NCBI RefSeq assembly: GCF_030296575.1
Contig: NZ_AP027729.1
Span: 1,488,001-1,552,000 of the forward strand
Length of the DNA stretch: 64,000 bases
Direction: 5' to 3'
From: Paraoerskovia sediminicola
GTDB taxonomy: Bacteria; Actinomycetota; Actinomycetes; Actinomycetales; Cellulomonadaceae
The notes below the pieces were generated by a model, which worked only from the letters and a program-made list of their open reading frames with translations, had not been told where the DNA came from and ran no database searches. Positions within the stretch are counted from its first letter, which is position 1. Every line of letters begins with the position of its first letter. Positions 42,026 through 63,036 of the stretch are shown here, one piece after another. Position numbers and translations under genes: made by a program.

Positions 42026-43904
42026 AGATGACGATGGCGTCTGTCAGTACGGGGCGTGGTTCTGTCGCGCCTGCTGTGCGTCGTAGTAGGAGGCGCTGGA
42101 CGGGGTGGCAGTTCGTGGGCCCGTTCATGGTGATCTTCACGCTGGTGTTCTTGGCGCCGATCGCGTATTCGATCTATATCAGCCTGTTCCGCACGCAGTT
42201 GATCGGTGGGACGTCGTTCGTCGGGTTCGACAACTATGTGACCGCGTTCCAGGATCCGCAGTTCTGGTCCGGGGTCTCGCGGGTGGCGTTGTTGTTGTTG
42301 GTGCAGGTGCCGATCATGTTGGGGATCGCGTTGTTGGTCGCGTTGGCGATCGATTCGGGCCGGTTGTACGGCAAGTCGTTCTTCCGGATCTCGATCTTCA
42401 TGCCGTACGCGGTGCCGGCGGTGGTTGCGGCCCTGATGTGGGGGTTCATGTATGGGACGCGGTTCGGTCTGATCGGCAACATCAACGACGCGTTCGGGAC
42501 CTCGATCCCGGACCCGATCAGTTCGGGGTTCGTGCTCGCCGCGATCGGGAACATCGTGACGTGGGAGTTCGTGGGTTACAACATGCTGATCTTCTTCGCG
42601 GCGTTGCGTACGGTCCCGCACTCGTTGTACGAGGCGGCGGAGATCGATGGTGCGGGGCAGTGGCGGATCATCTCGGCGATCAAGCTCCCCGCGATCCGTG
42701 GGGCGTTGGTGATCGCGACGATCTTCTCGATCATCGGGTCGTTCCAGCTGTTCAACGAGCCGTCGATCCTGCAGAGCTTGTCGCCGAACTACATCACGAC
42801 GTACTTCACCCCGAACCTGTATGCGTACTCGTTGTCGTTCTCGGGTCAGCAGTACAACTATGCGGCGACGATCGCGATCATCATGGGCGTGCTGACGATG
42901 CTCGTGGCCTATGTCGTCCAGCTGCGCGGCATGCGCAAGGAGGTGTGAACCGATGAGTTCTGCAACCCAGCAGGCGACGGCAGGTCGTCCCACCGGTGCG
43001 GGTCGTAGCGGTGCGAAGGGTCCGGCGCGGTTGAGGTCGAAGCGTCCTGCACCGTCGATCGCGAACCCGCGCAAGAGCTTGACGTTGACGGTCCTGACGG
43101 GTCTGGTGCTGTTGTACGCGCTGGTGCCGTTGGCGTGGTTGGTGATCAACGCGTCCAAGACGCAGAAGGACCTGTTCTCCTCGTTCGGGTTGTGGTTCGC
43201 CGGTGACTTCGCCCTGTGGGACAACATCACCACGACGTTGACGTATCAGGACGGGATCTTCGCCCGGTGGTTCTTCAACACGTTGTTGTACGTGGTCGTG
43301 GGTGCCGGGGGTGCGACGTTCCTGGCGCTGCTGGGCGGGTACGGGTTGGCGAAGTTCAACTTCCCGGGCAAGCGTGCGGTGTTCGCGATCGTGATCGGTG
43401 CGGTCGCGGTCCCGGGGACGGCGTTGGCGGTCCCGACGTTCTTGATGTTCTCCAAGATGGGCCTGACCGATACCCCGTGGGCGGTGATCATCCCGTCGTT
43501 GATCGCGCCGTTCGGGTTGTACCTGATGTGGACGTTCGCGGCCGAGGCGGTGCCCGGTGAGTTGATCGAGGCCGCGCAGATCGATGGTGCGGGGCCGTTC
43601 AGGACGTTCTTCAAGGTCGCGATCCCGTTGCTGGGGCCGGGGATCGTGACGGTGCTGCTGTTCACGATGGTCGCGACGTGGAACAACTACTTCCTGCCGC
43701 TGATCATGCTTCGCGATCCGGACTGGTACCCGTTGACCCTCGGGCTCAACGCGTGGAACTCGCAGTCCTCCACGGCGGGTGGTGAGGCGATCTTCAACCT
43801 CGTGATCACCGGTTCGCTGCTGACGATCCTGCCGTTGGTCATCGCGTTCTTGTTCCTCCAGCGGTACTGGCAGTCCGGCCTCGCCGCAGGATCCGTCAAG
43901 GAAT
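42026..43904 (+). repeat. Copy 1 of 1.88-kb permease-pair duplication
   Basis: The sequence matches 61156-63034 (offset 19,130) through both permease genes. The first 1,865 bases look identical, then A at 43891 is C at 63021 (silent, Gly), then 13 more bases match before the stop codons differ (TAG here). Identity starts two bases before the first ATG. Confidence 0.93.
42028..42948 (+). CDS. Sugar ABC transporter permease (MalF/UgpA type), copy 1
   Basis: The 306-residue integral membrane subunit has six predicted helices and the EAA loop that docks the ATPase (LYEAAEIDGAGQWRIISAIK). It forms a heterodimer with the next gene's product for import of an oligosaccharide delivered by the lipoprotein at 44000. 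ATG 42028. Leucine is often TTG here (for example 42283-42300), unlike most neighbours where CTC/CTG dominate. The protein is identical to that at 61158. There is no ATPase gene nearby; actinobacteria often share one MsiK-type ATPase. First gene downstream of the LacI operator. Confidence 0.93.
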   Translation: MTMASVSTGRGSVAPAVRRSRRRWTGWQFVGPFMVIFTLVFLAPIAYSIYISLFRTQLIGGTSFVGFDNYVTAFQDPQFWSGVSRVALLLLVQVPIMLGIALLVALAIDSGRLYGKSFFRISIFMPYAVPAVVAALMWGFMYGTRFGLIGNINDAFGTSIPDPISSGFVLAAIGNIVTWEFVGYNMLIFFAALRTVPHSLYEAAEIDGAGQWRIISAIKLPAIRGALVIATIFSIIGSFQLFNEPSILQSLSPNYITTYFTPNLYAYSLSFSGQQYNYAATIAIIMGVLTMLVAYVVQLRGMRKEV

Positions 43905-43906
43905 AG
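42953..43906 (+). CDS. Sugar ABC transporter permease (MalG/UgpE type), copy 1
   Basis: The 317-residue partner permease has a Lys/Arg-rich N-terminal tail, six predicted helices and an EAA loop (LIEAAQIDGAGPFRTFFKVA). The gene starts four bases after the first permease, behind AAGGAGGTG. The protein is identical to that of 62083. TTG leucine codons are again common. Together with the MalF-type subunit it forms the membrane channel of a carbohydrate importer of the CUT1 group. Confidence 0.93.
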   Translation: MSSATQQATAGRPTGAGRSGAKGPARLRSKRPAPSIANPRKSLTLTVLTGLVLLYALVPLAWLVINASKTQKDLFSSFGLWFAGDFALWDNITTTLTYQDGIFARWFFNTLLYVVVGAGGATFLALLGGYGLAKFNFPGKRAVFAIVIGAVAVPGTALAVPTFLMFSKMGLTDTPWAVIIPSLIAPFGLYLMWTFAAEAVPGELIEAAQIDGAGPFRTFFKVAIPLLGPGIVTVLLFTMVATWNNYFLPLIMLRDPDWYPLTLGLNAWNSQSSTAGGEAIFNLVITGSLLTILPLVIAFLFLQRYWQSGLAAGSVKE

Positions 43907-43999
43907 CCCCTCCCGATGCGCCACGACGCGCATGACGCCGCTGCTTGACGAGCGTCGTCCTCGCTGATGAAGCCCAACAATGAAGTGAAAGGGACCACC

Positions 44000-45352
44000 A
44001 TGAACATCACACGTCGCCGCACCATCGTGCGGACGGCGGCACTGGCCGGAGCTCTGTCTCTCGCCCTTGCCGCATGCTCCAGCTCCGACGACTCGGGTGC
44101 CGAGGCGCCATCGTCGGAGGACGCCGCTGCGGACATCCAGGCAGCGCTCGACGAGGGCGGGGAGATCACCGTCTGGGCCTGGGAGCCGACGCTCACCCAG
44201 GTCGTCGAGGACTTCGAGGCGGAGTACCCGAACGTCACGGTGAACCTCGCCAACGTGGGGACGAGCCAGGACCAGTACACCTCGTTGCAGAACGCCCTTG
44301 CCGCCGGCGACGGTGTCCCGGACGTCGCGCAGATCGAGTACTACGCCATCCCGCAGTTCGCGATCGGGGAGTCGCTCGCCGACCTGACCCCGTACGGCGC
44401 TGCCGACCTGGACGGCACCTTCACTCCCGGGCCGTGGAGCACGGTGAAGCAGGGTGACGCGATCTACGGCCTCCCGATGGACTCCGGGCCTATGGCCATG
44501 TTCTACAACGCCGAGATCTTCGACGGCCTCGGCATCGACGTACCGACGACGTGGGACGAGTACTACGAGGCCGCCAAGGCGATCCACGAAGCCGACCCGA
44601 ACGTGTACATCACGTCGGACAACGGTGACGCCGGCCAGACGCTGAGCATGACGTGGCAGGCGGGCGGCCGCCCCTACACGGTCGATGGCACCGACGTGTC
44701 CATCGACTTCTCCGACGAGGGCACCACGAAGTACGCCACCCAGTGGCAGAAGATGATCGACGAGGGCCTGCTCTCGGACATCGGCGGCTGGTCCGACGAG
44801 TGGTTCCAGGGCCTGGGCAACGGCACGCTCGCCACCCTCGTGACCGGTGCCTGGATGCCCGCGAACCTCGAGTCAGGTGCTCCCGACGGCGAGGGCAAGT
44901 GGCGTGTCGCCCCCATGCCGCAGTGGGAGGACGGCGAGTCCGTCACCTCCGAGAACGGCGGTAGCTCGATCGCGGTCATGGAGGCCAGCGAGAACAAGGA
45001 GCTGGCGTACGCGTTCATCGACTACGCGAATGTCGGCGACGGCATCCAGACCCGCATCGACGGCGGCGCGTTCCCGGCCACCACGGCCGAGCTGAACTCC
45101 GACGAGTTCCTCAACAAGGAGTTCCCGTACTTCGGTGGCCAGAAGGTCAACGAGGTCCTGTCGCAGTCCGCCGCGGACGTCGCCGAGGGTTGGCAGTTCC
45201 TGCCCTACCAGGTCTACGCGAACAGCGTCTTCAAGGACACCGCGGGACAGGCGTACATCAACTCCTCGACATCCCTCGCCGACGGACTGCAGTCCTGGCA
45301 GGACACCAGCGTCAAGTACGGCAACGACCAGGGCTTCTCGGTCGACCAGTAG
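44000..45352 (+). CDS. Sugar ABC transporter solute-binding lipoprotein 1
   Basis: The 450-residue extracellular substrate-binding protein has a lipobox (SLALAAC, Cys26) and the cluster-B fold of oligosaccharide binders: ITVWAWEPTLTQVVEDFEAE, YPNVTVNLANVG, MDSGPMAMFYNAEIFDGLGI, VPTTWDEYYEAAKAI. It delivers sugar to the permeases just upstream. ATG 44000 is preceded by AAAGGGA; the leader CAATGAAG-GA-AGGGACC is shared with the second binding protein. In the 266 residues that can be compared it is clearly similar to that protein, with differences in many loops. Neighbouring GH35, GH42 and GH36 genes suggest a galactose-containing ligand. Confidence 0.92.
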   Translation: MNITRRRTIVRTAALAGALSLALAACSSSDDSGAEAPSSEDAAADIQAALDEGGEITVWAWEPTLTQVVEDFEAEYPNVTVNLANVGTSQDQYTSLQNALAAGDGVPDVAQIEYYAIPQFAIGESLADLTPYGAADLDGTFTPGPWSTVKQGDAIYGLPMDSGPMAMFYNAEIFDGLGIDVPTTWDEYYEAAKAIHEADPNVYITSDNGDAGQTLSMTWQAGGRPYTVDGTDVSIDFSDEGTTKYATQWQKMIDEGLLSDIGGWSDEWFQGLGNGTLATLVTGAWMPANLESGAPDGEGKWRVAPMPQWEDGESVTSENGGSSIAVMEASENKELAYAFIDYANVGDGIQTRIDGGAFPATTAELNSDEFLNKEFPYFGGQKVNEVLSQSAADVAEGWQFLPYQVYANSVFKDTAGQAYINSSTSLADGLQSWQDTSVKYGNDQGFSVDQ

Positions 45353-45357
45353 CACCT

Positions 45358-45399
45358 GACGACGGCGGGCCCGAGCGCACGCCCGGGCCCGCCGTCGTC
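45358..45399 (+). terminator. 16-bp hairpin between binding protein and GH35
   Basis: GACGACGGCGGGCCCG and CGGGCCCGCCGTCGTC pair perfectly with a 10-base loop, five bases after the stop. Placed inside the operon, it probably stabilises or partly ends the message so the lipoprotein is made in excess over the enzymes. Confidence 0.6.
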
Positions 45400-45436
45400 C
45401 GTCACGCTGACAAGCACACGAACCAAAGGTGATCTG

Positions 45437-47209
45437 ATGAGCACGTTCGCGATCGGGGAGACGGACTTCCTCCTCGACGACAAGCCCTTCCAGGTCATCA
45501 GTGGCGCACTGCACTACTTCCGGGTCCACCCCGACCTGTGGGAGGACCGGATCCACAAGGCGCGCCTCATGGGGCTCAACACCATCGAGACGTACGTCGC
45601 GTGGAACTTCCATGCACCGTCGCCCGGGGCCTTCGACACGACCGGGCGCCGCGACCTGGGTCGATTCCTCGACCTCGTCGCGGCGGAGGGCATGCAGGCG
45701 ATCGTCCGTCCAGGCCCGTACATCTGTGCGGAGTGGGACGACGGCGGTCTGCCGGCCTGGTTGCTGACGACGCCGGGCGTCGGCGTCCGTCGCTCCGAAC
45801 CGATCTACCTGACTGCGGTCGCCGCCTTCTACGGAAAGGTCCTGCCGATCGTCGCCGAGCGGCAGATCGGTCGCGGTGGGCCCGTGATCGCCGTCCAGGT
45901 GGAGAACGAGTACGGCGCCTACGGCGACGACGAGGACTATCTGCGCGAGCTGGTCCGGATGATCCGGGCCGAGGGCATCGATGTCCCCTTGCTCACGTGC
46001 GACCAGGCGAACGACGAGATGCTCGCGCGCGGAGGACTCCCCGAGCTGCACCGCACCGCGACGTTCGGCTCCCGCTCCACGGAGCGCCTCGCCACCCTCC
46101 GTCGTCACCAGCCGACAGGCCCGCTCATGTGCGGTGAGTTCTGGAACGGCTGGTTCGACAGCTGGGGCCAGCACCATCACACGGCGCCCGTCGAACTCAA
46201 CGTCGACGACCTGGACGACCTGCTCGCGTCGGGCGCCTCGGTCAACCTCTACATGTTCCACGGCGGGACGAACTTCGGATTCTCCAACGGCGCCAACGAC
46301 AAGGGCGTGTACGTCCCGATCGTCACGTCCTACGACTACGACGCCCCGCTCTCGGAGAGCGGCGACCCGACGGCCAAGTACATGGCGATGCGCGACGTCA
46401 TCGGCAGGTATGCACCGGTTCCCGACGAGGTGCCGCCCCCGCGCGCGCAGGCTCCTACCCTTGCCGTCCGCCTCGACCACGCCCTCGCCTGGTGCCAGGC
46501 ACGCCCACTTCTCGGGACGACGTCCAGCCACGACCATCTCCCGACGACCGGTGAGATCGGCCAGTGGTCCGGGTTCACGTCCTACCGGACGCAGATCACC
46601 GCCGACGACGACGCCGTCGCCCTCGAGGTCCGCGACCGGGCCGTGGCACTCCTCGACGGTCAGCCCGTGGGGACGCTGAGCCGGTCGGAGCACGGCGGGA
46701 CGTTGGCACTGCCGCATCGCGCCGGGACCCTCGAACTGATCGTTGAGAACCAGGGCGGGGTCAGCTACGGAAGCCGCCTCGGCGAGACCAAGGGACTTCT
46801 TGCCCCCGCCCGGACCGCGACGCGCGTGCTCGACGCATGGAACGTGACCGCTCTGCGACTCGAGGACCTTCCCGAGGATTTCACCGAGCGTCTGCGGGCC
46901 ACCACGCCGGAGTCGACGTGCGACGAGAACCGTCCGGTCGCCGGTCCGTCGTTCCGTCTCGGGACCTTCGACACGACGGCCGGTGCGGACCACTTCCTTC
47001 GGCTCGACGGTTGGACCAAGGGTCTCGTGTGGGTCAACGGGTTCCTGCTCGGTCGGTACTGGAGCGCCGGCCCTACCAAGACCCTCTACGTGCCCGGCCC
47101 GCTGCTGCGGTCGAACGGCAACGAACTGATCATCCTCGAGCTGCACGGTGCAGCCGCCGCGACGGCGAACTTCGTCGCGGCACCCGACCTCGGACACACG
47201 GAGCAGTGA
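45437..47209 (+). CDS. Beta-galactosidase, glycoside hydrolase family 35
   Basis: The 590-residue GH35 enzyme removes terminal beta-galactose with retention. The TIM barrel (1-330) shows ISGALHYFRVHPDLWEDRIH, ETYVAWNFHAPSPGAFD, RPGPYICAEWDDGGLPAWLL, the acid Glu158 in VENEYGAYG and the nucleophile Glu234 in CGEFWNGWFDSWG; two beta domains follow. It has no signal peptide, so acts on imported sugars. ATG 45437 follows AAAGGTGA. It lies two bases before the GH42 gene. Confidence 0.94.
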   Translation: MSTFAIGETDFLLDDKPFQVISGALHYFRVHPDLWEDRIHKARLMGLNTIETYVAWNFHAPSPGAFDTTGRRDLGRFLDLVAAEGMQAIVRPGPYICAEWDDGGLPAWLLTTPGVGVRRSEPIYLTAVAAFYGKVLPIVAERQIGRGGPVIAVQVENEYGAYGDDEDYLRELVRMIRAEGIDVPLLTCDQANDEMLARGGLPELHRTATFGSRSTERLATLRRHQPTGPLMCGEFWNGWFDSWGQHHHTAPVELNVDDLDDLLASGASVNLYMFHGGTNFGFSNGANDKGVYVPIVTSYDYDAPLSESGDPTAKYMAMRDVIGRYAPVPDEVPPPRAQAPTLAVRLDHALAWCQARPLLGTTSSHDHLPTTGEIGQWSGFTSYRTQITADDDAVALEVRDRAVALLDGQPVGTLSRSEHGGTLALPHRAGTLELIVENQGGVSYGSRLGETKGLLAPARTATRVLDAWNVTALRLEDLPEDFTERLRATTPESTCDENRPVAGPSFRLGTFDTTAGADHFLRLDGWTKGLVWVNGFLLGRYWSAGPTKTLYVPGPLLRSNGNELIILELHGAAAATANFVAAPDLGHTEQ

Positions 47210-47211
47210 AC

Positions 47212-49248
47212 ATGACGGACACGACCTTCGAACCCCTCGGCATGCCTCACATGGGGACAGGCTCCTCGATCGGGTTCGGCGCCGACTACAACCCGGACCA
47301 GTGGCCGCGCGAGGTGTGGGACGAGGACGTCGCCCTCATGCGCGAGGCCGGCGTCAACGTCGTCTCCGTCGCGATCTTCTCCTGGGCACGGCTGCAGCCG
47401 ACGGCGGACACCTGGGACTTCGCGTGGCTCGACGAGGTCATGGACCTGCTCCACGCGAACGGCATCGGCGTTGACCTCGCCACCGCGACCGCGTCGCCGC
47501 CCGCCTGGCTCACGACCGCCCACCCCGAGGTGCTGCCGGTCACGCGCACCGGCGAGACGCTGTGGCCCGGCGGGCGGCAGCAGTGGCGACCGACGTCGCC
47601 GGTCTTCCGGGAGCATGCCCTGCGCCTCGCCGACGCGATGGCGCAGCGGTACGCCGACCATCCCGCCCTCGTCGCGTGGCACGTCTCCAACGAACTCGGC
47701 TGCCACAACGTCTGGGACTACTCCGACGATGCCGCCGCGGCGTTCCGTGCGTGGCTGCGCGAGCGTTACGGCACCCTCGACGCGCTCAACGCGGCGTGGG
47801 GCACGGCGTTCTGGTCGCAACGGGTCGGTGACTGGGCGCAGGTGCTTCCCCCGAGGCAGTCGGCAGCGCAGTCGAACCCGACCCAACAGCTCGACTTCAA
47901 GCGGTACTCGTCAGACGCCCTGCGTGACTACCTCCGGGCCGAGCGGGAGGTGCTGCGTCGCCACACCCCGAGAGTCCCGATCACGACCAACTTCATGGTC
48001 ATGCGTACCCCCGAGGGCATGGACTATGCCTCGTGGGCGCGGGAGGTCGACTTCGTCTCGAACGATCACTACGTGCACCCCGGTCCGCAGGGGCACGACG
48101 AGCTGTCCTTCTCGGCGAACCTCACCAGCGGTATCGCCGGTGGCGACCCGTGGTTCCTCATGGAGCACTCGACCAGTGCGGTCAACTGGCAACCGGTGAA
48201 CCGGCCCAAGGCCCCGGGTGAGCTCGCCCGTGACTCCCTCACGCACGTCGCCCACGGCGCCGACGCCGTCTGCTACTTCCAGTGGCGGCAGTCCGCGTCG
48301 GGCGCTGAGAAGTACCACTCGGCGATGGTTCCCCACGCCGGCCGCGACAGCGACGTCTTCCGGGCCGTCGCGGACCTCGGGCGCACCCTCGAGACCCTCG
48401 CCCCGGTCGTCGGCACCCGCCGGAGCCCGGCTCGTGCAGCGATCCTCTTCGACTGGGACTCCTGGTGGACGTCCGAGATCGACTCCCACCCGAGCGACCG
48501 ACTCCGCTACCGCCAGGAGGCGCTCGACTGGTACTCGGCCTTCCTGGCGCTCGGCGTGCGGGCCGACGTCGTCCCCGCCCACGGCGACCTGTCGGCCTAC
48601 GACGTCGTCGTCGCCCCCATCCTCCACGTCGTCCCTGCGGACCTCGCCCGGAGCCTCGCGGAGTGGGTCTCCGCAGGCGGGCACCTGGTCACGACGTACT
48701 TCTCCGGGATCGTCGACCAGGACGACCACGCGTGGCTCGGCGGCTACCCCGGCGCGTTCCGGGATCTCCTCGGGATCCGGATCCAGGAGATGGCACCCCT
48801 GTTCGACGACGAGACACCACGCCTCGACGACGGGCGTCCCGTCAGCCTGTGGGCGGACCCGATCGACGTCGTCGCCGCCGAGGTCGAGGTGCTGAGCACC
48901 TACGTGGACGGCGCTCAGGCCGGACGCCCGGCCGTGACCCGGCGTCCCGTCGGCCAGGGTTCGGCGTCGTACGTGGGGGCGCGTCTCGGTGCGGTGGGGA
49001 TCGCCCCGACGCTGGCGCAGATCCTCGACGGTGCGGGCGTGCACAGCGAACTTCCGGTGGCGAACCGGGGCGAGGTTGAACTGACAGTTCGCACCGACGG
49101 GGAGTCCGACTACTGGTTCCTCGTCAACCGGACGACCGAGGCGATCGAGGTCACGGGTCTTCACGGGCAGGCACTGATCGGCGACCTCTCGGGCGAGGTG
49201 CTGACCCTCGCCCGGCGAGGCGTCGCGGTGCTGCGGATGGACGTCTGA
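47212..49248 (+). CDS. Beta-galactosidase, glycoside hydrolase family 42
   Basis: The 678-residue GH42 enzyme has the barrel start GFGADYNPDQWP, acid/base Glu161 in HVSNELGCHN and nucleophile Glu318 in WFLMEHSTSAVNW, followed by trimerisation and beta domains. GH42 enzymes split short beta-galactosides inside the cell and complement GH35. No signal peptide. ATG 47212 is two bases after the GH35 stop, so the two enzymes are made together. Different linkage preferences are likely but not readable from sequence. Confidence 0.94.
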   Translation: MTDTTFEPLGMPHMGTGSSIGFGADYNPDQWPREVWDEDVALMREAGVNVVSVAIFSWARLQPTADTWDFAWLDEVMDLLHANGIGVDLATATASPPAWLTTAHPEVLPVTRTGETLWPGGRQQWRPTSPVFREHALRLADAMAQRYADHPALVAWHVSNELGCHNVWDYSDDAAAAFRAWLRERYGTLDALNAAWGTAFWSQRVGDWAQVLPPRQSAAQSNPTQQLDFKRYSSDALRDYLRAEREVLRRHTPRVPITTNFMVMRTPEGMDYASWAREVDFVSNDHYVHPGPQGHDELSFSANLTSGIAGGDPWFLMEHSTSAVNWQPVNRPKAPGELARDSLTHVAHGADAVCYFQWRQSASGAEKYHSAMVPHAGRDSDVFRAVADLGRTLETLAPVVGTRRSPARAAILFDWDSWWTSEIDSHPSDRLRYRQEALDWYSAFLALGVRADVVPAHGDLSAYDVVVAPILHVVPADLARSLAEWVSAGGHLVTTYFSGIVDQDDHAWLGGYPGAFRDLLGIRIQEMAPLFDDETPRLDDGRPVSLWADPIDVVAAEVEVLSTYVDGAQAGRPAVTRRPVGQGSASYVGARLGAVGIAPTLAQILDGAGVHSELPVANRGEVELTVRTDGESDYWFLVNRTTEAIEVTGLHGQALIGDLSGEVLTLARRGVAVLRMDV

Positions 49249-49292
49249 CGGCTCGGTAGGGTCCGGCTCGAGACCGCGAGAGGAGGCAGACC

Positions 49293-50363
49293 GTGAGCAC
49301 GACGGAGAGATCGTCGACCTTGGCGTGGTCGGGAGCCAGACCCACCGGGCGCAAGAAGGGCCCCGGGGCGTCGATGGCGGACGTGGCGGCGCTCGCGAAG
49401 GTCTCTTCGCAGACGGTCTCCCGCGTCTCGAACGGACACCCCAGCGTCCGTGAGGAGACGCGCGAACGGGTGCTGAAGGCGATGGAGACGCTCGGGTACG
49501 CACCGAACGAGGCAGCGCGCGCCCTGCGGTACGGGAAGTTCGGCACCATCGGCCTCATCGCGCACCGGCTCGCCCGTACCGGCGAGTCGCGCACGGTCGA
49601 GGGCGTCGTCGAGGCGGCCCGGACGCTCGGATTGACCGTGACGTTGGTCGACGTCCTCGCACCCACGTCGGACGACATGACGGCCGCCGTCGCGCAGCTG
49701 ACGCACCAGTCCATCGACGGACTCATCATCATCCGCTCCGAGCTGAGTGCCACGGAGAACATCGCCTTGCCACCTCGCTTGCCGGTCGTGGTGTCCGACT
49801 CCCGACTGATCGGGAGCCGTCCCGCTGTGGGCACGGACCAGTCGCAGGGTGCACGCCTGCTCGTCGAGCACCTCCTCGCCCTGGGCCACCGCACCGTGCA
49901 TCATCTCGCGGGCCCCTTGGACTCGGGACCGGCCCAGGAGCGTTCCGACACCTGGGCGCAAGTGCTCCGGGAAGCCGGACGGGACGTCCCGGAGATCGGG
50001 GTCGGGGACTGGACAGCGCACTCGGGATACGTGTGGGCCACCAGTCTCGACATCGGCGGCGTCTCGGCGGTGTTCTGCGCGAACGACGAGATGGCAGCGG
50101 GCGTCGTGCGAGGCCTGCACGAACGGGGCTGCCGGGTGCCGCAGGACGTGTCTGTCGTCGGGTTCGACGACGTGGCCCTGGCGGGATATCTCTGGCCGCC
50201 TCTGACGACGGTCCGCCAAGACTTCCAGAAGATCGGCAGCGAACTGGTCAGGCTCCTCGCTGAGCAGATGGACACCGGCAGACATCTCTCGGACGTGCAC
50301 GTCACCGTCCCGGTCGAACTGCTCGTCCGTGAAAGCTCCGCGCCGCCACCCGCCACCGCGTGA
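49293..50363 (+). CDS. LacI-family repressor of the galactoside operon
   Basis: The 356-residue regulator has an unusually long (~27-residue) basic N-terminal tail, then the LacI HTH (MADVAALAKVSSQTVSRVSN, 28-47), hinge (LRYGKFGTIGLIAHR) and a sugar-binding core ending with FCANDEMAAGVVRGL and GFDDVALAGYLWPPLTTVRQ. GTG 49293 has GAGGAGG upstream. It most likely binds the palindrome at 41974 and is released by galactose or a galactoside. Placement inside the operon gives negative feedback. Confidence 0.92.
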   Translation: MSTTERSSTLAWSGARPTGRKKGPGASMADVAALAKVSSQTVSRVSNGHPSVREETRERVLKAMETLGYAPNEAARALRYGKFGTIGLIAHRLARTGESRTVEGVVEAARTLGLTVTLVDVLAPTSDDMTAAVAQLTHQSIDGLIIIRSELSATENIALPPRLPVVVSDSRLIGSRPAVGTDQSQGARLLVEHLLALGHRTVHHLAGPLDSGPAQERSDTWAQVLREAGRDVPEIGVGDWTAHSGYVWATSLDIGGVSAVFCANDEMAAGVVRGLHERGCRVPQDVSVVGFDDVALAGYLWPPLTTVRQDFQKIGSELVRLLAEQMDTGRHLSDVHVTVPVELLVRESSAPPPATA

Positions 50364-50403
50364 TGCGCTGCCTGCACCCCGATCTGTCGACGGAAGGACC
50401 TTC

Positions 50404-52536
50404 GTGACCGCGATCCACCACCTCCAGGTCGCCGGGACGAGCCTCGTGCTCGACGCCCGCGGCAGCGACGTACCCGTCGTCGTCCACTGGGGCGGCGACC
50501 TCGGGGAACTGACGGAGGGCGATCTGACCACGCTCGCGGACTCCCAGGTCCCGGCGATCCCACCGAACTCGGTCGACACCCCGTTGCGCGCGCGCCTCGT
50601 GCCGTTGCCGACCGACGGATGGTCAGGCACGCCGGGACTTCGAGGGTGGCGTCCGGACGGCTCGCCCGCTGCGGCTCGGCCCGCACTGCGACACGTCGAG
50701 ACCACGCGTGCGTCGGGCACCGCCCACGGTGGGAGCCTTCGGATTGCCCTGGTAGACGACGAGGCCGGCCTGGAGGTCGTCGTCACCCTCGCGCTCGGCC
50801 CGACGGGAGTCCTCGAGAGCCGCACCGACGTGACCAACGCCGGACCGACGTCGTACGCCCTCGATGCGGTTCACGCCACCCTCCCACTCCCTGCCCGTGC
50901 GGCCGAGATCCTCGACCTGAGCGGGCGCTGGTCCGGGGAGCGGCGACCCCAGCGGCTCCCCGTGCGCGACGGCGTGTGGTCCCGTGAGACCCGGCACGGG
51001 CGGACCGGACACGACGCACCCACGCTCACGGTCGTCGGGACGCCAGGGTTCGGTTTCCGCTCCGGCGAGGTCTGGGCCGTGCACCACGCGTGGAGCGGCG
51101 ACATCGCCGTGCGCGTGGAGCATCAGCCGACGGGGCACACCGTCGTCGGGGCCGGCGAGATCTGGGGACAGGGCGAGGTCGTCCTCGCTCCCGGCGAGAC
51201 GTACTCCTCGCCGCGCACCCTCGCCGCGTGGTCAGCAGACGGGATGGACGGCACGTCCGCGCGGTTCCACGCCTGGGTCCGGTCGCGTCCCGGCCGGGTG
51301 GCGACGCCACGGCCCCTGACCCTCAACATCTGGGAGGCCGTGTACTTCGACCACGACCTCGACAAGCTCACGGCGCTCGCCGACGCGGCGGCCGCCGTCG
51401 GCGTCGAGCGGTTCGTGGTCGACGACGGATGGTTCCGCGGGCGGATCGACGACTCCCGGGCACTGGGGGACTGGCAGGTCGACCCCGGCCGCTGGCCCGA
51501 CGGCCTGGCACCCCTCGCGAACCACGTGCGCGGACTCGGAATGGGCTTCGGACTCTGGGTCGAGCCCGAGATGGTCAACCTCGATTCCGACGTCGCTCGG
51601 GCACACCCTCAGTGGGTCCTTCGGGGTGCCCCGCACCGCGACCCGTTGCCCTGGCGCCACCAGCACGTCCTCGACCTCGCGAACCCCGACGCCTACGCCT
51701 ACGTGCGGGACGCCGTGGTGGCACTGCTCGACGAGTACCCCATCGAGTACCTCAAGTGGGACCAGAACCGCGATGTGCTCGACGGGCCGGCCCGCGCTCA
51801 GGTGCTCGCGACCCGCAGGCTCATGGATGAGCTCAAGGCGCGGTTCCCCGAGGTCGAGATCGAGTCGTGCTCGTCCGGCGGCGGGCGCGTCGATCTCGAC
51901 GTCCTCGATCGTACGGACCGCGTGTGGGCGTCCGACACCAACGACCCGCTGGAGCGCCAGGTGGTGCAGCGCTGGACCGGGCTGCTGGTCCCGCCGGAAC
52001 TCGTCGGCACGCACGTCGGCGACGCCCGCGCGCACACCACGGGCCGCACGCTACCCCTGGGTCTGCGGCTGCTGACCGCGACCTTCGGGCACAGCGGCAT
52101 CGAGTCAGACATCACCAAGGTCACCGATGAGGACCGTGCCGCGCTCACCCGATGGGCCGCCGTCGTCCGCGACGTGCGAGGCCTCGTGGCGAGCGGCACG
52201 ACCGTGCGAGCCGATCGGCACGACGAGTCGTGCTGGGTGCACGGCCTCGTCGCCCCGGATCGCTCGGAGGCGCTGTTCGCGATCGTCAGCCGCTCCGCGT
52301 CGCCCGATGCGATGCCGTCGGCGGCCGTCCTGCCAGGGCTCGACCGCGACCGGTGCTACCGCGTCGAACGGATCGATCTGGGCGCGGTGGCGCTCGCTGT
52401 CGAGAACGCACCACCCGCCTGGTGGGCCGCGGGAAGGGTGGAACTGTCCGGCGCGGCGCTCGATCAGGTCGGCCTGCCGCTGCCGTGCCTCGCGCCGGAG
52501 CAAGGCGTGCTGTTGCGAGTGCGTGAGGTGGCGTGA
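50404..52536 (+). CDS. Alpha-galactosidase, glycoside hydrolase family 36
   Basis: The 710-residue GH36 enzyme has an N-terminal beta-sandwich (1-300), TIM barrel with VDDGWFRGR, nucleophile Asp453 in YLKWDQNRD and acid Asp511 in WASDTNDP after [11 protein letters not shown], and a C-terminal beta domain. It cleaves alpha-galactosides such as melibiose or raffinose-type sugars in the cytoplasm. GTG 50404 follows GGAAGGA at 50392-50398. The stop overlaps the acetyltransferase start by one base. With GH35 and GH42 the locus can handle both anomers of galactose. Confidence 0.94.
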
Positions 52537-53179: not shown

Positions 53180-53183
53180 CCCG

Positions 53184-54028: not shown

Positions 54029-54089
54029 ACCACCCCTGCGGGTGGAAGGTCCCTGGAGCCGCTGAGCGGACTCGGTGTCGCCGCGATCG

Positions 54090-54998
54090 TCATCCACGGT
54101 CGTGCGCGCGATAGTCCGTGGGACTCATGGAGTGCAACTTGCGGAACTGGCGCGAGAAGTACAGCGGGTCGGCGTACCCGACTTGCTGGGCGATCGACAC
54201 GATCGGTCTGTCGGTCGTGTCGAGGAGCTCCCGTGCGATCCCCATGCGTAGACGGGTCTGGTATTCGAGGACTCCGTACCCGACCCGCTTGCGGAACAGA
54301 GCCGCATAGTGCGACTGGCTGAGCCGGGCCATCGCGGCGAGCTCGGGGACGGAAACCCGCTCGGAGACGTTCGCACGGAGAAACTCGAGAGTCACCTCGA
54401 CCGGGTCCACGCGATCCGGGCTGGTCGCACGTCGGTCCGCGCCGATGAGGGCGAGCGCGTGCCATGCGGCCCCGGCGGCCGCAATGAGGCTCGACATCGT
54501 CTCGTCATGCTCCATGCGTCGGATGATCGTCTCGAAGAGGGCGACGATCCGGGGTGGATCACCCAGCGTGAGTACCGGTCCGTCGACCCCTGCTGTCATC
54601 GTCTCGACGAGCTCCGGCACCGCACTTCCGGTGACGTGCATCCACCAGATCGTCCAGGGATCGTCCTGGTCGGCCTCGTACTGATGCGCCGTTCCGGCGG
54701 GGATCACGAGTGCCTGACCGGCGCGTACCGCATGCGTGCCCGAGGGGAGTCGACAGATCCCCCGACCTCCGGAGCAGACGATGACGATGTGCTGCGGTGC
54801 GCCGGATGTGCGCCATCGCCCGTGAAAAGCTGCGTGAGGGAAGAAGCCGACGTCGGTCACGAGGATATGGGACGTCGTGGGCTGCTTCAGTGCGTGTGTG
54901 AGCAGCGGTCGGGGCAGGACGCGCATGCGTTGTCCGGGGAAGCCGTCCCGGCGTCGACGGTATCCAGATCGCGGCGCTGCTCTCGTCGATTCGTCCAT
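54090..54998 (-). CDS. AraC-family transcriptional regulator
   Basis: The 302-residue regulator has a cupin-type sugar-binding domain (IVIVCSGGRGICRLPSGTHA, VRAGQALVIPAGTAHQYEAD) and a C-terminal double HTH (SVPELAAMARLSQSHYAALF, VSIAQQVGYADPLYFSRQFR). It is read divergently from the DUF5107-TPR gene with ~60 bases between starts, so it probably controls that second operon. ATG 54998 is chosen; an upstream start at 55019 is less likely. This second regulator suggests the two transporter sets respond to different sugars. Confidence 0.9.
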   Translation of the reverse strand: MDESTRAAPRSGYRRRRDGFPGQRMRVLPRPLLTHALKQPTTSHILVTDVGFFPHAAFHGRWRTSGAPQHIVIVCSGGRGICRLPSGTHAVRAGQALVIPAGTAHQYEADQDDPWTIWWMHVTGSAVPELVETMTAGVDGPVLTLGDPPRIVALFETIIRRMEHDETMSSLIAAAGAAWHALALIGADRRATSPDRVDPVEVTLEFLRANVSERVSVPELAAMARLSQSHYAALFRKRVGYGVLEYQTRLRMGIARELLDTTDRPIVSIAQQVGYADPLYFSRQFRKLHSMSPTDYRAHDRG

Positions 54999-55057
54999 GA
55001 TGCTCGCAGGATCGCACATTCCCGGAGGCTTACGCGCTCACTAGCGTCGCAAGGGTG

Positions 55058-58000: not shown

Positions 58001-58435
58001 CGCGCTGACGAGGGCGACCGTGCGGGGGCTCGGAGGGCATGGACCGAGGCAGCGACCTTCGCCGGGGACTTCCGCGGCATGGAGACGGTGCCCTACTCGG
58101 AGATGACGTACTACTCGGTCCTCGCGGCCCGTCACCTCGACGACATCGAGATGGCTGAACGGCTCGAGCGGGGACTCGCCGAGTACGTCGCTCACTTGCG
58201 CTCGACTCCGGCGAAGGTCGACTACTTCGCCACGTCCTTGCCGACCATGCTGCTCTTCAGCGACGACCTCGCTGGTCGACAGGTGACGACGGCCCTACTC
58301 CTCGATGCTCAGCTCGCCGTGCTGCGCGGCGGCGCAGAGCGAGCTCAAGAGCTTGTCGCCCAGGTTCTCGACCGTGACCCGAATCAGGTCCGTGCCATCG
58401 ACCTTGCGCGAGAGCTCGGAGCGAGAGTGCGCTAG
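55058..58435 (+). CDS. DUF5107-TPR protein
   Basis: The 1,125-residue cytoplasmic protein has an N-terminal DUF5107 region (about 1-400; GNRVYQGSSGQIFPLPFHER, WVRLMILPELGGRIHIGVDK, VEFNWPQHHRPGTFLPTDAF, WSWGDAPFGHTWDDNLTDTD) whose layout resembles galactose-mutarotase-like beta-sandwiches, and a long C-terminal array of TPR-type helices (about 500-1120; DDARAWLLLGNWLYSERRHD, EAIHAWRRAAVIDSEDTVAR). DUF5107-TPR proteins often lie in carbohydrate loci, yet no activity is settled. Start ATG 55058 or GTG 55055; a leaderless message is possible. First gene of the araC-divergent operon. Sugar-processing function is inference. Confidence 0.85.
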   Translation: MTQTSRLELPTAPIGRADDPVKAWREPVEIDTYMPQEPDAYPAYLGNRVYQGSSGQIFPLPFHERISSTKSPRQWDAIHLENEWVRLMILPELGGRIHIGVDKSNGYDFFYRNNVIKPALVGLTGPWLAGGVEFNWPQHHRPGTFLPTDAFIEYEDDGAVTVWCSDHDPFARMKGMHGIRLRPGSNVIEARVRLFNRTTDAQTFLWWANVAAAVGDDYQSFFPTDVTYVADHAKRAITAFPAADRPYYGIDYPDRVTDERPDGDRIDWYRNVPVPTSYMCIGTQDDFFGGYDHGVDAGFVHWADHLVAPGKKMWSWGDAPFGHTWDDNLTDTDGPYIELMAGVFTDNQPDFTYLAPGETKTFSQYWYPIQRIGAAHQATLDSAVRLDVRPDGNGTRVHLGVAVTQARAGLQIDLVDARENSLWQDTVDADPGRPVLRDVSLAAVLDPTDVTLVVSQAGADLLRWTPRPERSGGVPEREPEPAREPVDPQEIASSDELYLTGVHLEQYRHATRSPEPYWEELLARDPLDARGNTALAARRLRAGRFVEAELLARTALDRQTALNPNPRDGEVLYLLGQICESTGRREEAYAAYGKAAWSAQWKVPAWLAMARIDAAAHRDRAALSRVESVLAVDAEHVQARDLAVVVLRRLDMGDRAAEVLAGTLSFDPGDWWARDLAGEAVLADGPTCVDIALEYVSVGDQDAALRLFEHAAARPLPTGQVAVGPLAHYYRADLMRSAGDIEGAAAAHAQACAADGAFCQASRREDAAMLVRTVDAHPDDARAWLLLGNWLYSERRHDEAIHAWRRAAVIDSEDTVARRNLAVASFNVLDDPEAALRWYAEALALAPRDPRLIYESDQLDKRLGKSASDRLVRLERLRGIVGLRDDLTVELVELLTATGRADEAREVLRFRHFQPWEGGEGRVLGAWDEALLALAREALAHGRATESRRRLEEALDPPANLGEARHPLANAAHILLALGTARADEGDRAGARRAWTEAATFAGDFRGMETVPYSEMTYYSVLAARHLDDIEMAERLERGLAEYVAHLRSTPAKVDYFATSLPTMLLFSDDLAGRQVTTALLLDAQLAVLRGGAERAQELVAQVLDRDPNQVRAIDLARELGARVR

Positions 58436-58481
58436 GCCGACCGAAGAACGCACCGCGAACAACGTCTCGAAAGGTTGACCA

Positions 58482-59771
58482 ATGACGATCGCCCGCCCGA
58501 CGGGAATCCCCGACCACCTCCCGGCACGCCTGACCATCTCACTGTGGGACTTCTCCTGGTACACCCGGACACAGGAGGGTGAACCGTTCGCCGACCTCGA
58601 CGTCGCTTTCGACGAGGCGGTGGAGCGGGGCTACAACACCGTCCGCATCTGCGCGATGCCGTTCCTGCTCTTCGGCGAGCACGGCATCGACACGACTGCT
58701 CTGCGCATGGTCTCGATGGGCGGGGAGGTCGGGCAGCGCACCCGCTGGTACGACGCCGATGGCGGCGCCACCATCGACGGTCGGGCGCATCTTCTCGAAC
58801 TGTTCCGCGCCGCGGACAGGCACGGCTGCTCGGTCATCCTGTCCTCCTGGGAGTACCAGCAGAGTCCCGCCTTCCTGGAGGGTCCCGAGTGGTACGAGGC
58901 GCTCGCCGCCGTTCCCGCCGACGAGCGGCACTCGGTACTCGCGGCAGCGATGTCGGACCTCGTCCAGTTCGTCAAGGACGAGGGACTCGCGCACCGGATC
59001 GCCTATGCGGAGCTCCACAACGAGGTCGACCTGAGCCGCCTCAACCTCGCGGGCGGTGGTTCCGATACCGATCCGTTCTGGCCACAGCGCGCGAGCCTCG
59101 ACCACGCGGTCCGCCAGGTGCAGGAACGGCATCCCGACATCCACGCGACCTGGTGCTACGGAATTCCGCCGCACCTCGACATGGGTGCAGTTCCTGACGT
59201 CGGTCAGATCGGGCACTTCCATCTCTACGTCTACGGAGTCCTCGGGGCGCTGGAGCGATTCGCGGGGGTCCGGGACACCGAAGGGTTCCCGTCCGAGGCC
59301 TTGAGGACGTTGCTGCGACGCGATGCGCCGCCCGTGTCCCAGTACGAGGGCAAGGTCGAGCCGTGGCGTCTTGCGGCGACAGGAGTCTCGACCACGATGT
59401 TCTACACCTACGACTGGGTCGACACCGCGAAATGGGACCTATGGCTCTACGAGCACTACGGCGAGTGGCGCGAAGCGATGATGCAGGCGATCGACGACCG
59501 GCTCGAGGTCTTCGCGCGATGGAGCAGCGGGCATGGTGTCCCGATGGTCGTCGGCGAAGGGTGGGTGGGCTACACCCCACTGCTCGCGGAGTTCGAGGAC
59601 GGTCCGGTCGGGCAGGCGATCGCTGAGCACGCGCTCGAACGCTGCATCGACCTAGGTGTCTGGGGTGCCGTCGCCGGCTCGAACTCGGCGCCGCAACACC
59701 CGGGCTGGGACAACGTCGAGTGGCAACAGGCGTGGAACCGACGCTTCCTCGCGGGCCAGATCGATGACTGA
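58482..59771 (+). CDS. Cellulase-like glycoside hydrolase (GH5-like clan A barrel)
   Basis: The 429-residue TIM barrel has sequence features of cellulase-like (clan GH-A) enzymes: LTISLWDFSWYTRTQEGEPF, VRICAMPFLLFG, the acid/base candidate Glu181 in AELHNEVDLSRLN and nucleophile candidate Glu359 in VVGEGWVGYTPL. Such proteins are listed as cellulase-like with few characterised members. No signal peptide. ATG 58482 follows AAAGG. It overlaps the sulfatase gene by eight bases, implying they act on the same substrate. Linkage specificity cannot be read from sequence. Confidence 0.8.
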   Translation: MTIARPTGIPDHLPARLTISLWDFSWYTRTQEGEPFADLDVAFDEAVERGYNTVRICAMPFLLFGEHGIDTTALRMVSMGGEVGQRTRWYDADGGATIDGRAHLLELFRAADRHGCSVILSSWEYQQSPAFLEGPEWYEALAAVPADERHSVLAAAMSDLVQFVKDEGLAHRIAYAELHNEVDLSRLNLAGGGSDTDPFWPQRASLDHAVRQVQERHPDIHATWCYGIPPHLDMGAVPDVGQIGHFHLYVYGVLGALERFAGVRDTEGFPSEALRTLLRRDAPPVSQYEGKVEPWRLAATGVSTTMFYTYDWVDTAKWDLWLYEHYGEWREAMMQAIDDRLEVFARWSSGHGVPMVVGEGWVGYTPLLAEFEDGPVGQAIAEHALERCIDLGVWGAVAGSNSAPQHPGWDNVEWQQAWNRRFLAGQIDD

Positions 59772-61161
59772 CGGCGGGCGTGCCGCCAGGCGGCCGAACG
59801 TCATCGTCTTCTTCACCGATCAACAACGGGCAGACACCCTCGGTGTCACGGGGAACCCTTCAGGACTGACACCGAACCTCGACCGGATGGCCGGCCGCGG
59901 CACCATGTTCGAGGCCGCTTGCGCGTCCAACCCGGTGTGTGCACCGTCGCGTGCTGCCGTCCTCACCGGGCGATACCCGACCGAGGCAGGGGTGCACAAC
60001 AACCTCATGCCGTTGGATCCGTCGATCCCGACTCTCGGACAGATCTACCAGGAGGCCGGCTACCGCACGGGCTACATCGGGAAGTGGCATCTCGGGTCGA
60101 CGAACCCGGTGCCGCGAGAGGAGCGGCAGGGCTACGACCATTGGTTGGCGTCGAATCTCTTGGAGTTCACGTCCGACGCCTACCGGACCGTCGTCTACGA
60201 CGACGACGGCACGCCGGTCGAGCTACCCGGGTATCGCGCCGACGGGATCACCGACGCGGCGATCCGATTCATCGCCGAAAGCTCGGACGAGCCGTTCTTC
60301 CTCTTCGTGTCGCTGCTGGAACCGCATCACCAGAACGAGACAGACAACTACCCCGCACCCGAGGTCTACGAGAAGGCGTTCAAGGATGCCTGGGTTCCAC
60401 CAGACCTCGCAGCACTCGGTGGAACTGCCCCTCAGCACTTGCCGGGATACTACGGCCAGGTGAAGCGCCTTGACGAGTGCATGGGACGACTCAGGGACGT
60501 ACTGGTGAGTCTGGAGATCGACGGCGACACGATCGTCACCTACACCTCGGATCACGGTGCGCATTTCAAGACTCGGAACGACGAGTACAAGCGCTCCTGC
60601 CACGATGCATCGATCCGCGTGCCGTTGCTCATGGAAGGTCCGGGGATCGCTGCCGGCCGCCGCGTCGAGTCCCCCGTCTGCACGGTCGACCTCGCACCCA
60701 CCCTGCTCGAGGCGAGCGGCCTGGCGCGCCCCGAGGGGATGCGGGATCGATCCCTCCTCCGCGATCACGGACTCGACGAGGACGTGTTCATCCAGGTGAG
60801 TGAGGCAGAGACCGGGCGCGCACTGCGCACCCGCCGGTGGAAATACCACGTCGTCGCCGACCTCGAAGGGGACCCAGCGACGACCGACGCGTATCGCGAG
60901 CTCGAGCTCTTCGACGTGTCGATCGATCCCTACGAGCTCGACAACCTCATCGACAGCGAGGGCCATCGAGATGTCGCCGAGCAGCTGCGGGCGCGGCTGT
61001 GCAGCCGTGTCCTCGAGATCGAGGGCATCGAGCCATCGATCATCAAGTTCGGTGGACAGGGGCGTCCGCTGCGATCGGTGGAGCCGACGGTTCGGCTGTC
61101 CGGTCTGCGCGGTGAGCGGTTCGGCCATCAGGGTCCTCGTCGCACGGAGGTCGTGAGATGA
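59764..61161 (+). CDS. Type I sulfatase (formylglycine-dependent)
   Basis: The 465-residue alkaline-phosphatase-fold sulfatase has the metal site start NVIVFFTDQQRADTLG, the formylglycine motif Cys59-Ala-Pro-Ser-Arg63 (CAPSRAAVLTGR), GYIGKWHLG, and the late SDHGAHFKTR/KRSCHDASIRVPLL. It removes sulfate esters from a glycan or small molecule in the cytoplasm (no signal peptide). ATG 59764 overlaps the previous gene's end (ATGACTGA); its own TGA overlaps the start of the duplicated permease. The C-terminal ~30 residues are not typical and may reflect joining to the duplicated block. Maturation needs a formylglycine-generating enzyme encoded elsewhere. Confidence 0.9.
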   Translation: MTDGGRAARRPNVIVFFTDQQRADTLGVTGNPSGLTPNLDRMAGRGTMFEAACASNPVCAPSRAAVLTGRYPTEAGVHNNLMPLDPSIPTLGQIYQEAGYRTGYIGKWHLGSTNPVPREERQGYDHWLASNLLEFTSDAYRTVVYDDDGTPVELPGYRADGITDAAIRFIAESSDEPFFLFVSLLEPHHQNETDNYPAPEVYEKAFKDAWVPPDLAALGGTAPQHLPGYYGQVKRLDECMGRLRDVLVSLEIDGDTIVTYTSDHGAHFKTRNDEYKRSCHDASIRVPLLMEGPGIAAGRRVESPVCTVDLAPTLLEASGLARPEGMRDRSLLRDHGLDEDVFIQVSEAETGRALRTRRWKYHVVADLEGDPATTDAYRELELFDVSIDPYELDNLIDSEGHRDVAEQLRARLCSRVLEIEGIEPSIIKFGGQGRPLRSVEPTVRLSGLRGERFGHQGPRRTEVVR

Positions 61162-63034
61162 CGATGGCGTCTGTCAGTACGGGGCGTGGTTCTGTCGCGC
61201 CTGCTGTGCGTCGTAGTAGGAGGCGCTGGACGGGGTGGCAGTTCGTGGGCCCGTTCATGGTGATCTTCACGCTGGTGTTCTTGGCGCCGATCGCGTATTC
61301 GATCTATATCAGCCTGTTCCGCACGCAGTTGATCGGTGGGACGTCGTTCGTCGGGTTCGACAACTATGTGACCGCGTTCCAGGATCCGCAGTTCTGGTCC
61401 GGGGTCTCGCGGGTGGCGTTGTTGTTGTTGGTGCAGGTGCCGATCATGTTGGGGATCGCGTTGTTGGTCGCGTTGGCGATCGATTCGGGCCGGTTGTACG
61501 GCAAGTCGTTCTTCCGGATCTCGATCTTCATGCCGTACGCGGTGCCGGCGGTGGTTGCGGCCCTGATGTGGGGGTTCATGTATGGGACGCGGTTCGGTCT
61601 GATCGGCAACATCAACGACGCGTTCGGGACCTCGATCCCGGACCCGATCAGTTCGGGGTTCGTGCTCGCCGCGATCGGGAACATCGTGACGTGGGAGTTC
61701 GTGGGTTACAACATGCTGATCTTCTTCGCGGCGTTGCGTACGGTCCCGCACTCGTTGTACGAGGCGGCGGAGATCGATGGTGCGGGGCAGTGGCGGATCA
61801 TCTCGGCGATCAAGCTCCCCGCGATCCGTGGGGCGTTGGTGATCGCGACGATCTTCTCGATCATCGGGTCGTTCCAGCTGTTCAACGAGCCGTCGATCCT
61901 GCAGAGCTTGTCGCCGAACTACATCACGACGTACTTCACCCCGAACCTGTATGCGTACTCGTTGTCGTTCTCGGGTCAGCAGTACAACTATGCGGCGACG
62001 ATCGCGATCATCATGGGCGTGCTGACGATGCTCGTGGCCTATGTCGTCCAGCTGCGCGGCATGCGCAAGGAGGTGTGAACCGATGAGTTCTGCAACCCAG
62101 CAGGCGACGGCAGGTCGTCCCACCGGTGCGGGTCGTAGCGGTGCGAAGGGTCCGGCGCGGTTGAGGTCGAAGCGTCCTGCACCGTCGATCGCGAACCCGC
62201 GCAAGAGCTTGACGTTGACGGTCCTGACGGGTCTGGTGCTGTTGTACGCGCTGGTGCCGTTGGCGTGGTTGGTGATCAACGCGTCCAAGACGCAGAAGGA
62301 CCTGTTCTCCTCGTTCGGGTTGTGGTTCGCCGGTGACTTCGCCCTGTGGGACAACATCACCACGACGTTGACGTATCAGGACGGGATCTTCGCCCGGTGG
62401 TTCTTCAACACGTTGTTGTACGTGGTCGTGGGTGCCGGGGGTGCGACGTTCCTGGCGCTGCTGGGCGGGTACGGGTTGGCGAAGTTCAACTTCCCGGGCA
62501 AGCGTGCGGTGTTCGCGATCGTGATCGGTGCGGTCGCGGTCCCGGGGACGGCGTTGGCGGTCCCGACGTTCTTGATGTTCTCCAAGATGGGCCTGACCGA
62601 TACCCCGTGGGCGGTGATCATCCCGTCGTTGATCGCGCCGTTCGGGTTGTACCTGATGTGGACGTTCGCGGCCGAGGCGGTGCCCGGTGAGTTGATCGAG
62701 GCCGCGCAGATCGATGGTGCGGGGCCGTTCAGGACGTTCTTCAAGGTCGCGATCCCGTTGCTGGGGCCGGGGATCGTGACGGTGCTGCTGTTCACGATGG
62801 TCGCGACGTGGAACAACTACTTCCTGCCGCTGATCATGCTTCGCGATCCGGACTGGTACCCGTTGACCCTCGGGCTCAACGCGTGGAACTCGCAGTCCTC
62901 CACGGCGGGTGGTGAGGCGATCTTCAACCTCGTGATCACCGGTTCGCTGCTGACGATCCTGCCGTTGGTCATCGCGTTCTTGTTCCTCCAGCGGTACTGG
63001 CAGTCCGGCCTCGCCGCAGGCTCCGTCAAGGAAT
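61156..63034 (+). repeat. Copy 2 of 1.88-kb permease-pair duplication
   Basis: This copy matches 42026-43904 with one internal difference (C at 63021). Its left edge abuts the sulfatase stop codon and its right edge falls in the stop codon of the second permease (TGA here). Confidence 0.93.
61158..62078 (+). CDS. Sugar ABC transporter permease (MalF/UgpA type), copy 2
   Basis: The 306-residue protein is identical to that at 42028. The ATG overlaps the sulfatase stop (ATGA), so in this copy expression depends on the sulfatase transcript and translational coupling, and the LacI operator of copy 1 is absent. It has the same TTG-rich codon use and the same EAA loop. It should form a channel with the next gene and be fed by the second binding lipoprotein. 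Confidence 0.93.
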   Translation: MTMASVSTGRGSVAPAVRRSRRRWTGWQFVGPFMVIFTLVFLAPIAYSIYISLFRTQLIGGTSFVGFDNYVTAFQDPQFWSGVSRVALLLLVQVPIMLGIALLVALAIDSGRLYGKSFFRISIFMPYAVPAVVAALMWGFMYGTRFGLIGNINDAFGTSIPDPISSGFVLAAIGNIVTWEFVGYNMLIFFAALRTVPHSLYEAAEIDGAGQWRIISAIKLPAIRGALVIATIFSIIGSFQLFNEPSILQSLSPNYITTYFTPNLYAYSLSFSGQQYNYAATIAIIMGVLTMLVAYVVQLRGMRKEV

Positions 63035-63036
63035 GA
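62083..63036 (+). CDS. Sugar ABC transporter permease (MalG/UgpE type), copy 2
   Basis: The 317-residue protein is identical to that at 42953, with the same strong AAGGAGGTG ribosome site. It differs in DNA only at one silent Gly codon near the end and at the stop (TGA for TAG). It is followed, after ~165 bases without similarity to copy 1 except the short leader before the ATG, by a second binding-protein gene. Confidence 0.93.
   Translation: MSSATQQATAGRPTGAGRSGAKGPARLRSKRPAPSIANPRKSLTLTVLTGLVLLYALVPLAWLVINASKTQKDLFSSFGLWFAGDFALWDNITTTLTYQDGIFARWFFNTLLYVVVGAGGATFLALLGGYGLAKFNFPGKRAVFAIVIGAVAVPGTALAVPTFLMFSKMGLTDTPWAVIIPSLIAPFGLYLMWTFAAEAVPGELIEAAQIDGAGPFRTFFKVAIPLLGPGIVTVLLFTMVATWNNYFLPLIMLRDPDWYPLTLGLNAWNSQSSTAGGEAIFNLVITGSLLTILPLVIAFLFLQRYWQSGLAAGSVKE

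Follow-up and report, generated by a model that had tools for sequence, protein, structure and literature searches.

A stretch of 64,000 nucleotides (nt) of Paraoerskovia sediminicola DNA (contig NZ_AP027729.1, positions 1,488,001 to 1,552,000; hereafter the window, numbered from its first base) contains two loci, A and B, for putative sugar importers. Their paired permease genes are almost identical in DNA sequence, whereas the binding lipoproteins encoded beside them are diverged paralogues. Judging from the sequence alone, we consider it probable that a recent gene conversion, running from A into B, overwrote the permease pair of locus B.

A permease block shared by two diverged loci

The shared block measures 1,879 nt in each copy (42026-43904 in locus A and 61156-63034 in locus B, both on the forward strand), and a single base in all tells the copies apart, A at 43891 and C at 63021. 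This base is the third of glycine codon 313 of the second permease gene, GGA in locus A and GGC both in locus B and in the congener Cellulomonas sp. PhB143, and the difference is therefore silent. On the left, the block begins 2 nt 5' of the permease 1 ATG (42028 and 61158); on the right, it ends at the first base of the permease 2 stop codon (TAG at 43904-43906 in A, TGA at 63034-63036 in B). In an ungapped comparison of A with B, the flanks beyond these edges show background-level similarity. The first-pass annotation of this DNA had described the two copies as the same bar one silent base, with edges almost at the first start and last stop codons and with diverged paralogous lipoproteins adjoining them. 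All of this is borne out, the lipoproteins sharing 73.8% identity over 451 aligned positions. Searching the whole genome (3.52 Mb in 2 contigs) at the DNA level returns two near-identical copies, the next best match covering part of the query at 74% identity; a repeat search of the window yielded, among the matches listed, no further pair of similar length and identity. The copies lie 19 kb apart on one 3.45-Mb contig within unrelated flanks, and both are open reading frames.

In either copy, four bases separate permease 1 (306 amino acids; 42028-42948 in A and, with identical DNA, 61158-62078 in B) from permease 2 (317 amino acids; 42953-43906, stop TAG, in A and 62083-63036, stop TGA, in B). 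Permease 1 resembles the MalF/UgpA type, as read from its translation and from the Pfam BPD_transp_1 match of the identical copy B, and has 7cad, 8ja7 and 2r6g chain F as solved relatives. Permease 2, also a BPD_transp_1 protein, resembles the MalG/UgpE type, and the NCBIfam scores of both stay under the equivalog cut-offs. Each pair is encoded together with an SBP_bac_1 lipoprotein on the same strand, binding protein A (44000-45352; 450 amino acids) or binding protein B (63203-64000, on to 64558 past the window end; 451 amino acids), whose lipoboxes were judged by eye. By these Pfam matches both loci have the make-up of CUT1-type carbohydrate ATP-binding cassette (ABC) importers. The genome encodes one MalK-type ATPase (OB_MalK match), far from both.

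Old paralogues would be expected to differ at hundreds of positions, not at one, because between these permease genes and their syntenic counterparts in PhB143 there are about 161 changes over the 918 sites compared for permease 1 and about 206 over 951 for permease 2. Chance is excluded as the source of the near-identity. Protein searches, in which only candidates sharing most words were scored and the best 120 listed, found no near-identical relative of permease 2 or of binding protein B; the best matches outside the genome itself, among those listed, reach 84% and 69%, respectively.

Silent sites separate the permeases sharply from their neighbours. By Nei-Gojobori counts, synonymous divergence (Ks) between A and B is 0.000 for permease 1 and 0.004 for permease 2, but 0.93 for the binding proteins. 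The same three genes of locus A, compared with PhB143, give 0.69, 0.67 and 0.58, and binding protein B compared with PhB143 gives 0.82. Values against PhB143 for genes near locus A are 0.28 (methylenetetrahydrofolate reductase), 0.54 (GH42), 0.68 (GH35), 0.73 (GH36) and 0.92 (LacI). Of about 470 silent sites in the A and B permeases just one differs, right at the edge of the block, and for the rest a rough upper limit is 3/470 = 0.006; against PhB143, 44-45% of the silent sites of these genes differ. A near-identical tract that includes silent sites and lies inside otherwise diverged loci is what gene conversion leaves behind. Given that the one silent difference in some 470 sites falls at the edge, the homogenisation is, by this measure, very recent relative to the split from PhB143.

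Phylogenetic analysis of the binding proteins points the same way. Trees were built from 41 protein rows and from a 16-row subset, on which the constraint tests were run; a third paralogue of the genome, binding protein C, entered both by its second part alone, because it is frameshifted. Binding protein A groups with the metagenomic sequence P0004, and B groups with C and the metagenomic P0005. Forcing A and B to be sisters costs 42.7 log-likelihood units and is rejected by the approximately unbiased test (p-AU 0.00024), and forcing A, B and C together gives p-AU 0.00076. The signals for the place of PhB143 differ: shared-site patterns favour A (40 sites vs 22 and 20), protein trees weakly favour B with C, and the test leaves a grouping of A with PhB143 and P0004 standing (p-AU 0.08). 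Since the binding proteins are not sisters and their Ks contrasts with that of the permeases, the A and B loci evidently predate the identity of their permeases, and this holds for an origin of B by duplication as well as for its arrival with an island. A recent duplication of the whole operon is rejected on the same two grounds, adjacent binding proteins at Ks 0.93 and not sisters. When the binding-protein genes of A, B, C and PhB143 were scanned in sliding windows, no conversion tract stood out. The first part of C is nearer to A than to B in non-synonymous divergence (Ka 0.10 vs 0.28); as Ks is 1.0-1.3 in both comparisons, its closeness to A is explained by unequal rates.

Likely direction of copying and rival explanations

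Base composition suggests which copy was the source. The G+C content at synonymous third positions (GC3s) of the permeases minus that of the binding protein is -0.026 at locus A and +0.071 at locus B. Over 84 related loci this difference has a mean of -0.002, a standard deviation of 0.014 and a largest value of 0.051, none of the 84 being as high as B. These are the loci, out of 86, that have all three genes; at least 3 of them were fetched twice (L041/L078, L045/L059, L046/L126), and they are mostly best-scoring matches (80 of 581 kept), not a random draw. GC3s is 0.80-0.84 in the neighbours of locus B, 0.90 in the permeases and 0.86-0.92 in the neighbours of locus A, the GH42 row not being used. 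Because the GC3s of the permeases fits locus A and is foreign to locus B, A is the likely donor and B the recipient, composition being the sole evidence for the direction.

The edges of the block are also informative. Homology between the loci ends, like the identity, at the coding ends: left of the start codon locus A has its operator region and locus B has sulfatase coding sequence, and right of the stop codon the spacers (93 nt in A, 166 nt in B) differ up to a short leader, recognised by eye, just 5' of the binding-protein start. The sole mismatch lies 13 nt 5' of the permease 2 stop, where B has GGC like PhB143, and the seven bases beginning with the stop codon read TGACCCG in both B and PhB143 but TAGCCCC in A. 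The right edge fits, on the few bases available, a tract that stopped some few codons before the end of a permease 2 gene already present in B, with 63021 as its likely right end.

As we picture the event, locus B at first held a divergent permease pair of its own. The locus A pair (42028-43906) would have been copied over it (61158-63036) by non-reciprocal homologous recombination, not inserted afresh, and the conversion likely ran to the ends of the stretch common to both loci, leaving the binding-protein genes diverged. The identical channels could then work with either binding protein, drawing their energy from the one MalK-type ATPase encoded elsewhere in the genome.

Related genomes provide a control. 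At E <= 1e-150, at least two paralogues of this binding protein occur in 12 of 221 family genomes, P. sediminicola included. In two of these, G187 (one pair) and G219 (three pairs), all members keep their permeases, diverged like the binding proteins: the four control pairs, tabulated without binding protein C of P. sediminicola, have permease Ks of 0.50-0.78 and binding-protein Ks of 0.41-0.75, and none is homogenised. Homogenised permeases are thus confined to P. sediminicola among the twelve. In nine genomes (G020, G033, G216, G218, G221, G222, G224, G225, G226), ten extra binding-protein genes stand without a permease pair in the fetched stretches of 12.5-20 kb. This orphan status is uncertain in G226, whose contig offers just 1.9 kb ahead of the gene, and limited in G216, whose contig is 13.2 kb long; about 8 kb from the G225 orphan (L208) there is a single weak match to permease 2, of 61 residues, and for the G020 orphan the permeases of another operon lie about 10 kb off, just beyond the fetched stretch. 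Orphan receptors thus appear common in the family, which makes channel sharing plausible and also strengthens the idea of an insertion, considered below. No second genome with both loci was found among the 221, and no within-genome identity across species was seen; recurrent concerted evolution is not what these genomes indicate.

Several observations weigh against a conversion from A into B. The permease Ks to PhB143 (0.67-0.69) falls between the values for binding proteins A and B, so Ks alone gives no direction; an unconverted locus B turned up in none of the genomes searched, so the earlier permeases of B are not seen; few bases mark the right edge, and relatives have TGACCCG more often than any other heptamer at that place (7 of 85). 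Moreover, with orphans so common, B could itself have been an orphan to which a permease pair was added. A copy of the A pair would then have been inserted before a binding protein B lacking permeases, directly behind the sulfatase, much as the ten extra paralogues and C stand without a permease pair nearby. Such an insertion would have required breakpoints falling by chance at the first ATG and in the last stop codon, still leaving a good stop, and a copy of A would not have brought the GGC and TGACCCG that the right edge of B has in common with PhB143; we regard this origin as improbable. That copy B was merely filled with copy A sequence during assembly or polishing is very unlikely. The genome is 87.6% complete in 2 contigs, as against 98-99% in three congeners, which may mean many small frameshift errors, and the frameshift of binding protein C at a G run suggests that the consensus may hold errors. 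Yet the two copies, both open reading frames, sit 19 kb apart between unrelated flanks of one contig and differ at one base and in the stop codon, and a true locus B would have either no pair or a divergent pair, which assemblers would not confuse with A.

Purifying selection as the sole reason for two like channels has practically no standing. The protein is conserved, permease 1 being 92% identical to its PhB143 counterpart, but the silent sites are alike too, where the comparison with PhB143 finds nearly half of them changed, and this refutes it. The first-pass annotation had offered conversion or selection for an interchangeable channel. Recent conversion is the part that stands, on the Ks contrast, the tree test, the direction given by GC3s and the edges, while selection alone cannot give silent-site identity; selection for an interchangeable channel is a possible reason why a conversion, once made, was kept.

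Gene content of the loci and of the window

By gene content and synteny, locus A is a galactoside operon. Upstream of its permease pair, at 41976-41989 on the forward strand, lies the perfect palindrome TGTTTACGTAAACA, by appearance a LacI-type operator; it is the single match in the window when up to 3 mismatches are allowed, and it is also present upstream of the PhB143 orthologue. No such palindrome precedes permease pair B, and none occurs at 53000-82000 of the extended sequence. The remainder of the locus (45437-52536, forward strand) encodes, according to Pfam, a GH35 beta-galactosidase (45437-47209), a GH42 beta-galactosidase (open frame 46837-49248), a LacI-family regulator (49293-50363) and a GH36/melibiase protein (50329-52536), in a gene order conserved in PhB143. 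Binding protein A is a predicted galacto-oligosaccharide binder whose closest solved relative is 6h0h (E 4.6e-122), to which binding protein B is about equally close. 6h0h is Bal6GBP, for which selectivity towards beta-1,6-galactobiose is described and whose gene shares its locus with that of a GH42 enzyme (PMC8106489). The ligands of binding proteins A, B and C, like the interchangeability of channel and receptors, are predictions. Adjoining the palindrome on the reverse strand is an S-adenosylmethionine riboswitch (41714-41815; RF00162, 48 bits, gathering threshold 44.4), directly upstream of the divergent methylenetetrahydrofolate reductase gene (40603-41652).

Locus B belongs to a stretch of about 53.2-69.4 kb (window numbering, reaching beyond the window) for which the corresponding position of PhB143 yields no DNA match except the permease and binding-protein genes. 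Its G+C content is 65.5%, vs 68.7% in locus A and 71.7-73.5% outside. Encoded there are a DUF5107/TPR protein, a cellulase-like protein, a sulfatase (59656-61161, forward strand; Pfam Sulfatase), the two permeases, binding lipoprotein B, a second sulfatase and a GH43 protein. The stop codon of the first sulfatase gene and the start codon of permease 1 overlap. The second sulfatase (64683-65843, window numbering; L039:1784-2944) is a frame without the start of its domain, the profile match beginning at 27/301, possibly through another frameshift. The orphan binding protein C (67951-69305, window numbering; L039:5052-6406) has no permeases beside it and is preceded by a reading frame that by eye resembles an SGNH hydrolase. 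Its frameshift, at a six-G run, may reflect a real pseudogene or a consensus error.

At E <= 1e-80, the sulfatase of locus B is found in no family genome other than its own (221 searched, own included), and in the order it is found in 8 genomes besides its own (396 genomes). Six sulfatase places in five of those 8 were inspected, and none has a close relative of this permease pair beside it; four have distant permeases (about 26-34% identity) and two have no permeases. As none of these six has a close permease relative, no donor of the island was found.

Elsewhere in the window, 3169-13231 encodes very long repeat-built protein(s) of surface type, the first open frame containing 10 DUF7927 and 9 DUF11 stretches. 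A 142-nt unit recurs 18 times there at a spacing of about 420 nt, spread over three neighbouring open frames that may be a single gene broken up by frameshifts. Two adjoining GAF-ANTAR paralogues lie at 18445-20198 (78% identity over 268 nt), the second open frame being short at its start.

Relation to known systems and significance

The mechanism, gene conversion, is known; it is the setting that is instructive, a channel cassette homogenised while its receptors diverged. In Salmonella, gene conversion between tufA and tufB was reportedly described by Abdulkarim and Hughes in 1996. In a later account, conversion there is bounded by the coding ends (PMC5485169), and as here two near-identical paralogous coding stretches share one chromosome with identity ending at coding boundaries. 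That case is an experimental one of a single gene with 12 differences, whereas the present one, deduced from sequence, involves a two-gene cassette next to a third, diverged operon gene. Concerted evolution in prokaryotes, where similarity at silent and non-silent sites is ascribed to gene conversion, concerns, in one survey, mostly subunits of complexes and in some cases whole operons such as amoCAB (PMC6053082). The P. sediminicola permeases share the high similarity at both kinds of site, but the surveyed cases recur over many species and this one is seen in one genome, possibly as one event. The words transporter and permease are absent from the examined parts and word counts of the main text of PMC6053082. 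Among the titles and abstract openings listed for gene conversion with ABC transporter, permease, paralog or solute-binding protein, none describes this pattern, which is no proof of absence.

Several binding proteins can work with one ABC importer, as HisJ and ArgT do. Athe_0597/0598 of Anaerocellum bescii (PMC12838199) and BlMnBP1/2 (PMC8106489) are further examples; in them, as here, two or more paralogous binding proteins go with a single type of permease pair. Unlike them, P. sediminicola has the pair twice, in two loci with different enzymes, and sharing is a prediction. Actinobacterial CUT1 sugar importers are described as drawing on a shared ATPase of the MsiK type (PMC6167110); similarly, each operon here has a binding protein and two permeases without an ATPase gene, and the one MalK-type ATPase of the genome presumably serves them.

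We see here a clean natural example of conversion confined to one module of an operon, in which the channel is homogenised and the receptors are free to diverge. Consequently, permease trees and binding-protein trees of one operon can disagree. If the receptors share the channel, the two loci would serve as a simple model in which to learn where the components of an ABC importer have to fit one another and where they are free to differ, and in which to study how new sugar-use islands get wired to resident transporters. One may speculate further, though we hold this larger scenario to be doubtful, that an incoming sulfated-glycan island brought receptor B and the orphan C, that the resident channel overwrote the island's own from start to stop codon, and that one channel accepts every receptor, with sensing and regulation kept apart. 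If so, conversion would give bacteria a means of connecting foreign receptors to a transporter they already have, with the channel as a standard part of the genome.

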